Of a DNA stretch of 64,000 nucleotides, positions 35,993 through 39,330 are shown one piece after another. Numbering within the stretch: the first letter of the stretch is position 1; the number at the start of each line of letters is the position of its first letter. The translations under genes and the position numbers were made by a program. The notes under the pieces were generated by a model. It was given only the letters and a program-made list of their open reading frames with translations, did not search any database and was not told the origin of the DNA. The DNA comes from Terricaulis sp. (GTDB lineage: Bacteria; Pseudomonadota; Alphaproteobacteria; Caulobacterales; Aquidulcibacteraceae). The stretch spans positions 620,001 through 684,000 of the forward strand of contig JANPZV010000005.1 of the NCBI GenBank assembly GCA_024707365.1. Direction: 5' to 3'.

Positions 35993-36706
35993 TTAAGCGA
36001 TGGCGGCGCGTTGCAGATCAAACAAGCGCCCGCAGCCGAGCTTCGCAAGCCGCATCAGCTCGGCGAACTCTTCGTCCGAGAACGGGCGCTGCTCGCCGGT
36101 GGCTTGCAGTTCGATGATGCGGTTATCGCCCGAGAGCACGAAGTTTGCGTCCGCCTCGGCGTTGGAATCTTCGGCGTAGTCGAGATCGAGCACAGGCGCG
36201 CCGCTATAGACGCCGCAAGAAATGGCCGCCACTTGGCCGGTGATCGGGTCGGTTTTGATGACCTGTTCTTCGACCAGATACGCACAGGCTTTGGCGAGCG
36301 CCACCCAGGCGCCGGTGATCGCCGCCGTGCGCGTGCCGCCATCGGCCTGGATCACGTCGCAATCGAGCGTGATGGTGCGATCGCCCAGGGCTTTCAGATC
36401 AATCACCGAGCGCAAGGAGCGGCCGATCAGACGCTGGATTTCCTGCGTGCGCCCGCTCTGTTTGCCCGAAGCGGCTTCGCGGCGGCCGCGCGTGTGGGTG
36501 GCGCGGGGCAACATGCCGTACTCGCCCGTCACCCAGCCCTTGCCTTGGCCCTTGAGCCAGCCGGGCACGCCCTGCTCGACGCTGGCGGTGCAGAGCACAT
36601 GCGTCTGCCCGAATTTGGCCAGGCAAGAGCCCTCGGCGTAGCGGGAGACAGCGGTTTCGAGCGTGACATCGCGCAATTGATCTGCGGCGCGGCCGGAGGG
36701 GCGCAT
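35993..36706 (-). CDS. rph: Ribonuclease PH
   Basis: Phosphorolytic 3'-exonuclease that trims tRNA precursors. The 237-aa sequence has [20 protein letters not shown], the phosphate-binding [16 protein letters not shown]-like stretch ([17 protein letters not shown]), [29 protein letters not shown] and the C-terminal [12 protein letters not shown]. Start ATG at 36706 has GAGG upstream. In alphaproteobacteria rph usually faces hrcA directly; here a repeat-rich region and an ATPase gene lie between. Confidence 0.96.
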
Positions 36707-37033
36707 CGGGGCCTCTATTGGTTTGTTTGGTAAAGTTAGGCCCCTGCGGCCTAACTTTCCTATAGACCCCTATGGACGGGGCCGCGCCCGCTTGGCGGAA
36801 AGCCGCGCCAAAGTCGAGCCCTGCGCATGCGCCGGAGCATTGTATAGAGGTTTATAGCTTTGTTAGGACTAGTTAGCCGCCCTTAACCAAACTGGGCTAT
36901 AAAGCCCTAGAGAGCGTTTCACTGGGTTCCCATAGGAATGTTTGGACAAGTTTGGCCGAGTCGCCCTAACAGGCCGGTATAGATTTCTATAAGAAAGTTA
37001 GGTCGCCACCGCCTAACAAGGCCAAACAAACGT
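36707..37033. promoter_or_regulatory. 327-base repeat-rich divergent control region between rph and the ATPase gene
   Basis: No gene. The two ends are inverted, related arms: the left (from 36721, GTTTGTTTGG...GTTAGGC...CCTAACTTTC.TATAGA) and the reverse complement of the right (to 37031) agree at about 40 of 53 positions. Each arm contains a hairpin (GTTAGGC/GCCTAAC) and a TATAG-rich element; TATAGATTTCTATA at 36978-36991 is an inverted repeat. GTTAGG or CCTAAC occurs six times (36735, 36750, 36862, 36965, 36997, 37012) and GTTTGG or CCAAAC five times (36725, 36887, 36940, 36950, 37022). The arms run toward the rph and ATPase start codons, so both genes have homologous leaders. Confidence 0.7.
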
Positions 37034-38207
37034 ATGAAAGCCACCCACAATCCCTACAATCCCGGCGCGGGCGTGCCTCCCCCGGAGCTGACCGGGCGCG
37101 ATGCGCTGATCGAGCAGGCGCGCGTGGCGATTGTGCGGGTGAAGGCCGGGCGCTCCCGCCAAAAGCGCGATCCTGCTGGGCCTGCGCGGGGTGGGCAAAA
37201 CCGTTTTGCTCAATAGCTTCGAGGCGATCGCCGATGAGGAAGGCTGCCAAACGGCGCTGATCGAGATCGAGCCGAGCCTGCCGCTGGCGCAGCAGCTCGC
37301 CCCTCCCCTGCAGCAGATTCTGCATCGGCTCGACCGCATGAAGAAAGCGGGCGCCGAATTGCAGAAGGCGTTCGGCGCGCTGCGCTCTTTCGCGTCGATG
37401 TTCAAGGCCACGGTGGCGGACGTGGATTTCAGCCTCGCCACCACGCCGGCGACGGGCGATCTCACCATTGATCTCACCGAGCTGTTCATCGCCATCGCCG
37501 AAGCGGCCAAGAAGCGCGACACCGCCGTGGTGCTGCTGATCGATGAGATCCAATATTTGCAGAAAAACGATCTCTCCGCGCTGATCATGGCCATGCACAA
37601 GATGGCGCAGCGGCAATTGCCGCTGCTGCTGTTTGGCGGGGGCCTGCCGCAGCTGGCGAAGCTGGCCGGCGATGCGAAATCCTATGCCGAGCGCTTGTTT
37701 GATTATCCGCCGATCGGCGCGCTGGACGAAGCCGGCGCGCGCCTGGCGCTGACGGCCCCGGCCGAACGCGAAGGCGTGAAATACAATAAGGACGCGCTCG
37801 ATTTCATCATTGAGCAAACCGGGCGCTATCCGTTCTTTCTGCAAGTATGGGGCGCCCATTGCTGGGAGGCGGCGGCGAAATCGCCGATCACCCTGGCCGA
37901 CGCCAAGCGCGCCAGCGACACCGCGGTGGCTGCATTGGACGAAGGCATTTTCAAAGTGCGGCTGGCGCGGCTGACGGATCGGCAGAAAGTTTACGCCCGC
38001 GCCATGGCCGCGTTTGGACCTGAGCCGGTCAATTCCTCGGATGTTGCGCGCGCGCTTAAGCTTTCGCTCAGCCAAGCGGCGCCGATCCGCGATGAGCTGA
38101 TCAAGAAAGGCATGACCTACTCGCCCGAGCGCGGGCTGATCGGCTTTACCGTGCCGAAATTTGACGAATTCATGCGCCGGGCCATGCCGGACAAGCCCCA
38201 GCGCTAG
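37034..38207 (+). CDS. Orc1/Cdc6-like AAA ATPase with C-terminal winged helix, frameshifted near 37160
   Basis: An orphan AAA protein, 390 aa after removing one C from CTCCCGCC. It begins NPYNPGAGVPPPELTGRD, typical of a widespread bacterial Orc1-like ATPase family. Walker A is GLRGVGKT (residues 49-56) and Walker B VVLLIDE (165-171), followed by LPLLLFGGGLPQL as a sensor-like strand. The C-terminal ~80 residues (MAAFGPEPVNSSDVARALKLSLSQAAPIRDELIKKGMTY) form a winged helix that should bind DNA. No function is established. It lies 35 bases upstream of hrcA, probably sharing its transcript, and splits the usual rph-hrcA neighbourhood. No ribosome site precedes its ATG. Confidence 0.82.
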
Positions 38208-38242: not shown

Positions 38243-39330
38243 ATGGGCCTGCCCCCTCCCCCGAACCTCTCCCCGCTCGATGAGCGCGCGCGCGCGATTT
38301 TCCGTGAGATCGTGGAAACTTACCTCGCCACCGGCGAGCCGGTGGGCTCGCGCACGCTCTCGCGCATTGGCGGGGTGGCGCTTTCGCCGGCTTCGATCCG
38401 CAACACCATGGCCGATCTGGCCGCGCTTGGGCTGCTTGAGGCGCCGCACGCCATGGCCGGGCGCCGCCCCACGCAGCAGGGCCTGCGCTTCTTCGTCGAT
38501 AGCCTGCTGCAATTGGGGGACGTGAACGAGGATGAAAAGCGCGAGATCGATGCGCGCATCGCCAGCGCCGGCTCAAACCCGCAAGACGTGATCGGCGCCG
38601 CCTCGGAATTGCTTTCGGGCCTCGCCGGCGGCGCGGGGCTGGTGACGACGCCCGAGCGCGAGGCGCCGGTGCGGCATGCGGAGATCGTTTCGATCGGGCT
38701 AGGCCAGGCGCTGCTGGTTCTGGTGTTCGAGGACAATCAGATCGAAAACCGCGTGCTTTCGATCCCGCCCGACATCTCCCCCAGCGCGCTGACCGAGGCC
38801 GCGAACTATCTCAACGCCCGCTTCAAGGGCAAAACCCTGGCCGAAGCGCGCGCCGCCGCGAGCGATGCGCTGACGCAGGATCGCGCCGCGCTGGATCAAG
38901 CGGCGGCCAAGCTTGTGCAAGGGGGCTCGCCGAATGGTCGGGCGAGGATCCCACCATGGGACGCTCGCTGATCGTGCGCGGGCGCGCCAATCTGCTGCAG
39001 GATCACGAGGCGGCGGCGGATTTGGAACTTGCGCGGCGGCTGTTCGACGACCTCGAAAAAACCCGCGAACTCATCCAAGTGCTTGATATGGCGCGCGCCG
39101 GCGAGGCGGTGCGGGTGTTCATCGGCTCTGAGAACCCGCTTTTTTCGCTCTCGGGGTCGAGTCTGATCGTGGCTCCCTATATGAACGCGGAGCGAAGGGT
39201 GGTCGGCGCGCTGGGCGTGATCGGGCCAACCCGTGTGAATTACGCCAGGGTGATCCCGGTGGTGGACTATACCGCCCGCGTTGTCGGCCGGGTGCTGGAC
39301 GGGCGCGGCGATGAGGCCAAGAGGAAGTGA
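38243..39330 (+). CDS. hrcA: Heat-inducible transcription repressor HrcA, frameshifted near 38925
   Basis: Repressor of class I heat-shock genes. The winged helix is in [31 protein letters not shown] and [19 protein letters not shown]. The C-terminal half includes [23 protein letters not shown] and [22 protein letters not shown]. The frame changes where CAAGGGGGCTC has five Gs; six give [21 protein letters not shown] and a 362-aa protein. No CIRCE element (TTAGCACTC-type) is present upstream in this window, so its targets lie elsewhere. The stop abuts the grpE ATG. Confidence 0.93.

Follow-up and report, generated by a model that had tools for sequence, protein, structure and literature searches.

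A helically phased hexamer array at the start of a solitary AAA+ ATPase gene and its candidate role as that gene's own operator

What is the dense set of short repeats between rph and an AAA+ ATPase gene there to do, and which protein reads it? The window analysed here (the whole stretch of DNA, 64 kb in length) holds these repeats in a 327-bp gap at 36707-37033. The original prediction for this gap described inverted arms of about 53 bases, identical at about 40 of 53 positions, together with hexamers repeated five and six times, and proposed a repeated binding site for one protein, perhaps the ATPase. The arms hold up well: 36710-36773 agrees with the reverse complement of 36979-37042 at 46 of 64 positions, and the best 53-nt stretch gives 40 identities, where 300 dinucleotide shuffles reach 30 at most. 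A recount of the gap likewise agrees on six copies of GTTAGG/CCTAAC and five of GTTTGG/CCAAAC, which is far beyond shuffled sequence: the 11 GTTWGG/CCWAAC hexamers compare with an expectation of 0.58 (the mean of 5000 dinucleotide shuffles, where the largest count was 5 and none reached 11).

The hexamers occupy a fixed lattice, GTTWGG-N4-GTTWGG-N9-CCWAAC-N4-CCWAAC, found in four modules. Its steps run from GTTWGG to a second GTTWGG after 10 bp, to CCWAAC after a further 15 bp and to another CCWAAC after 10 bp more. Ten hexamer pairs are spaced 10, 15 or 25 bp apart, against a shuffle mean of 0.0012 and a shuffle maximum of 1. Across the genus loci, the TATA-like element TATAR and GTTWGG form 43 pairs within 30 bp, and in 27 of these TATAR begins 9 bp ahead of the hexamer, which places it a single lattice step away. 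Rather than plain hairpins, the hexamers form half-sites separated by one helical turn. A third module had been placed at 36842, and it is indeed present in a degenerate form, but the total of three was too low, as a fourth and better module lies at 36932-36970. The features of the locus are as follows.

35993..36706, minus strand: rph (RNase PH), the divergent neighbour, whose adjacency with the array is not conserved.
36717..36773, minus strand: module A, facing rph, with GTTTGG at 36725, GTTAGG at 36735 and CCTAAC at 36750.
36760-36765: TATA-like CTATAG of module A, a 10 bp step on the minus strand.
36842..36910, no strand assigned: module B, degenerate, with GTTAGG at 36862, GTTAGC at 36872 and CCAAAC at 36887; TATA-like elements flank both sides.
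36932..36970, plus strand: module C, with GTTTGG at 36940, GTTTGG at 36950 and CCTAAC at 36965.
36978..37033, plus strand: module D, adjoining the ATPase start, with GTTAGG at 36997, CCTAAC at 37012 and CCAAAC at 37022.
36987-36993: TATA-like CTATAAG of module D.
37034..38207, plus strand: AAA+ ATPase with a C-terminal winged helix, the likely reader of the array (ATG at 37034).

When module D is aligned with its counterparts in relatives, 19 columns are invariant in 12 sequences. A scan with the sigma-70 consensus found no promoter at module D, and it is for this reason that we infer the placement of the promoter. A module like C is visible at many genus loci. We also observed that the spacer of module C (36940-36970), approximately CGACTCG, is kept at most of the genus loci examined, unlike those of the other modules.

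The frame of the ATPase gene is broken between about 37150 and 37190, between the ATG and the P-loop, and the downstream ORF at 37191-38207 is intact. The adjacent hrcA (38243-39330) also looks frameshifted, being split over two overlapping frames. Two neighbouring shifted genes in one assembly hint at assembly indels rather than decay; given the intact ATPase orthologs in relatives, the cause could be an assembly error or recent decay. The only Pfam matches of the ATPase are AAA_16 and AAA_22. The predicted model combines an AAA+ fold with a C-terminal winged helix, and structure comparison places PABY2304 and SSO1545 nearest, followed by Orc1/Cdc6, with chains of RuvB, TnsC, NLR and CED-4 also in the lists. 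Pfam found no Rep-family initiator next to the repeats, the mark of a plasmid iteron; of the earlier description as 'iteron-like', the repeated sites are real and the term is an analogy only.

The ATPase family is patchy, occurs in many bacterial phyla as a solitary gene, and includes plasmid-borne members (119 records). Among 246 neighbour ORFs at 74 loci, drawn from the best 80 of at least 580 matches, the largest shared family spans 4 loci. A homologous neighbour ORF, presumably part of a type I restriction system, is common to L073, L078, L082 and L112 (4 of the 74 loci). Further paralogs of the ATPase are found in G007 and G028 (L028, L029 and L031, 46 to 49% identical), two of them with clear dyads built on other half-sites. 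PADLOC matches for the ATPase are weak and mixed, too little to establish a role in defence, and a match to phrog_6841 counts among the weak or empty leads. A phage collection yielded one 5.9-kb record with a putative relative and no evident array upstream, and a scan of viral contigs with one protein as query gave no relative.

Does the array belong to the ATPase, to rph or to neither? A search of the genome with this region matched one place only, which favours the operator reading and speaks against the MITE-like insertion once offered as an alternative, with its many dispersed copies. We scanned the genomes of 61 relatives, 30 of them from the same genus, with a 31-bp pattern of these hexamers, allowing at most one mismatch. 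It matched 42 times in 20 of the 61 genomes, all 20 within the genus; the backward pattern, used as a control, matched once across the 61. The ATPase is present in 22 of the 30 genus genomes (a further one, G012, has only a 42-residue match), and the pattern is found in 19 of these 22 vs 1 of the 8 others (Fisher p 0.0004). All but one of the 42 matches lie within approximately 310 bp upstream of an ATPase start. The remaining match is a solo module beside rph in G022 (C24:250908-250938, L036), a genome without the ATPase, and probably remains from an ATPase locus that has been lost. The ATPase-bearing genomes without a match are G015, where the contig ends inside the ATPase gene, and G021 and G025, where the arrays are degenerate. 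The exact dyad GTTWGG-N9-CCWAAC is confined to this locus, with 17 dyads in seven ATPase-bearing genus genomes and none in two genus genomes without the ATPase, and the backward dyad gives 0 to 3 matches per strand per genome in the same nine genomes.

In line with these scans, the motifs are conserved in relatives that have the ATPase and absent from those that do not, with the exception of the one relic. A repeated candidate protein-binding site tied to the ATPase is borne out: as the array is confined to its locus in every genome examined and conserved with the ATPase, the two observations on which the original prediction was to turn, copies elsewhere and conservation in relatives carrying the gene, both fall in the operator's favour.

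Co-control of rph, which had been suggested alongside, does not stand as a general feature. At five genus loci (L004, L005, L009, L010 and L012) a distance of 0.97 to 1.16 kb separates the starts of rph and the ATPase gene. The nearest ATPase homolog in G036 and G028 is away from rph, with neither rph nor hrcA in L023 and L022; the array is upstream of the relocated ATPase, and rph has no module there. Six of the seven ATPase-free genomes with a readable rph start have no module within 430 bp of it. Control of rph was rejected as the purpose of the array, because the array travels with the ATPase and rph is then left without a module; any influence on rph stems from adjacency, and its control looks incidental. 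The array follows the gene rather than the host, and the two move together between hosts.

Do the half-sites themselves change with the protein? All eight ATPases that are at least 54% identical to L006 have a GTTWGG dyad with at most two mismatches, as do 2 of the 71 others among the best 80 of at least 580 matches. These eight come from the genus of the window, from another genus of the same family and from bins labelled Deltaproteobacteria, Hyphomicrobiaceae and Bacteroidetes, labels to be read with the caution that bins can be mixed. The same-genus paralogs L028 and L029, by comparison, have half-sites that differ from GTTWGG. As judged from sequence, the half-site tracks the clade of the ATPase and not the host.

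The predicted recognition helix contains R-[DE]-E in 8 of 8 members of the GTTWGG clade and in 0 of the 71 others (again from the best 80 of at least 580), which is suggestive of a helix-to-half-site link in this one clade. According to a prediction written beforehand, new homologs were examined for both features: the GTTWGG dyad occurred in 0 of 23, and R-[DE]-E in 0 of the 22 with a readable helix. Since the 23 included no new R-[DE]-E homolog, only the negative half of the helix prediction was tested. The homolog L199, at 65% identity, has R-D-D in its helix and a dyad with one mismatch. A Mantel test of co-evolution over 79 proteins gave a weak signal (partial r 0.05 to 0.06, p 0.087 and 0.041).

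To describe the wider family, we used 74 distant loci from the best 80 of at least 580 matches, which represent its nearer part; the loci dropped were four of the window genus, one with 39 bp upstream and one near-duplicate. The half-site sequences of these 74 homologs differ from those in the window. In the 110 bp before their start codons, exact 5-mer repeats at a lag of 10 bp number 194, compared with 11.3 in dinucleotide shuffles, and those at a lag of 20 bp number 79, compared with 10.3; lags 9 and 19 are also raised, and inverted repeats show enrichment chiefly at a single parity. The controls at lag 10 gave 15 repeats downstream (11.7 expected), 10 at the coding start (8.5) and 15 in mid coding sequence (6.2). 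The stretch from -220 to -111 is mildly raised, at 28 vs 9.3 expected. Upstream regions of 179 other genes at the same loci gave 26 repeats, and the 42 AT-rich ones gave 8.

Taken locus by locus, 50 of the 74 have a significant 10-bp period or dyad before the start, and the other 24 distant homologs fail this test; among control stretches it is passed by 5 of 73 taken downstream, 7 of 74 taken further upstream and 8 of 73 taken from coding sequence. Fitting of 8-mer motifs to single loci was unstable at many of them and was left out of the counts. Where the dyad is significant, at 39 loci, its axis has a median position 39.5 bp before the start codon and falls between bases in 28 and on a base in 11, so the spacing of the dyad differs among lineages. 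The 23 new homologs mentioned above, a held-out set (27 loci minus 4 near-identical to the first set), gave 64 repeats at lag 10, spread over 11 loci, vs 9 further upstream; 12 of the 23 have no exact lag-10 5-mer. An array of TATNCG type, sought in eight distant genomes, was found in seven, with 17 of its 18 matches at the ATPase.

With the array, its geometry, its confinement to the ATPase gene and its recurrence across the family in hand, we consider it probable that the winged helix of the ATPase itself reads this array as a helically phased operator, giving autoregulation. The modules would present their half-sites on one face of the DNA, as direct repeats with a 10-bp period that converge on a dyad, whose spacer is 9 bp in the GTTWGG clade. 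The ATPase would most likely bind each half-site via its C-terminal winged helix, side by side and at about one subunit per turn, and once bound it would control, and most likely repress, its own transcription. We infer the ATPase as binder, the repressive sign of its binding and its oligomerisation on the array; the case for repression comes from the position of the array, which covers the 5' end of the ATPase gene as well as the TATA-like element. For one subunit per DNA turn, RdfS and BldC provide a precedent (PMC11963761). A bolder proposal, which we regard as somewhat unlikely, is that an Orc1/Cdc6-like ATPase encoded by a widespread, horizontally moving single-gene element of bacteria builds a filament or ring on its own phased array, which would be both switch and platform, with a readable code between winged helix and half-site.

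The main rival to the operator holds that the array is chiefly an assembly platform, akin to an origin box or centromere, where an Orc1/Cdc6-like ATPase nucleates to act on DNA in replication, partition or defence, and that the promoter overlap is secondary. The fold adjoins that of Orc1/Cdc6, each genome has a single array, next to the gene that it accompanies, and the family has members on plasmids. We nevertheless judge it unlikely. The ATPase scores 26.6 bits against TIGR02928 (orc1/cdc6, NCBIfam), far under the curated cut-off of 181.3; GC skew has no clear switch at the array, in a 64-kb window that is too short to settle the point; and the arrays sit at the start codon, with the median axis given above, as an operator would. 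The indirectly deduced identity of the binder also leaves room for a different regulator, encoded by the host, that would occupy the array and govern expression of the ATPase. This is quite improbable, as the half-sites keep to the ATPase clade even when the host labels belong to different phyla, the paralogs L028 and L029 have other half-sites within the same genus, and nine genomes contain the exact dyad nowhere else.

The original prediction had also allowed for homologous RNA hairpins in the 5'-UTRs; these would have a common regulatory role. GTTAGG-N9-CCTAAC could pair, and a dyad lies just before the start codon. However, of 33 perfect dyads from 22 loci, 20 have a complementary central W pair, vs 18.7 expected if the halves were independent; pairing leaves the direct repeats at 10 and 20 bp unexplained; and there is no Rfam match up to E 1. 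This explanation is very improbable. That the arms represent an inserted MITE-like element, or else an operator of CIRCE type for the adjoining HrcA, is barely conceivable, even though they are inverted, hrcA is adjacent and the 9-bp spacer is that of CIRCE (TTAGCACTC-N9-GAGTGCTAA). Apart from the single genomic place of the region, CIRCE has no match in the window with up to 3 mismatches, near-CIRCE sites are located elsewhere in the genome, and, with the exception of G022, genomes that have rph and hrcA and lack the ATPase contain no module.

These results give a concrete and testable property to a large family whose members are annotated simply as 'ATP-binding protein' or 'AAA family ATPase': a DNA array linked to the gene itself, constant in geometry and variable in sequence from clade to clade. 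The array is a ready ligand and reporter for bench work, and the many natural protein-operator pairs are a source from which a code for winged-helix recognition might be drawn. The family also bears on the origin of DNA reading in ORC-like and STAND-like ATPases. A search of the open-licence literature found no description of the ATPase family or of the array.

Among known systems, the ATPase shares its overall fold with the archaeal AAA+ ATPases PABY2304 (2qen) and SSO1545 (2fna), to which it is 17 to 18% identical; a phmmer search of PDB sequences gave no chain below E 0.5 and only 2p67 at E 0.54. We know of no array reported for PABY2304 or SSO1545. Orc1/Cdc6 proteins (1w5t, 2qby and 2v1u, the last two DNA-bound) combine AAA+ and winged helix as the ATPase does, and have initiator boxes near the initiator gene, whereas the array of the ATPase lies at the start codon and differs between clades. 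The STAND regulators MalT and IniR have a sensor domain, carry a LuxR-like domain elsewhere in the protein and act on a neighbouring operon; the ATPase differs in that its only array is at its own gene. RdfS and BldC are small winged-helix proteins without an ATPase, and we claim no kinship between them and the protein described here. They are reported to occupy DNA with a spacing of 9 to 10 bp, one subunit per turn, and RdfS to exert negative autoregulation (PMC11963761).
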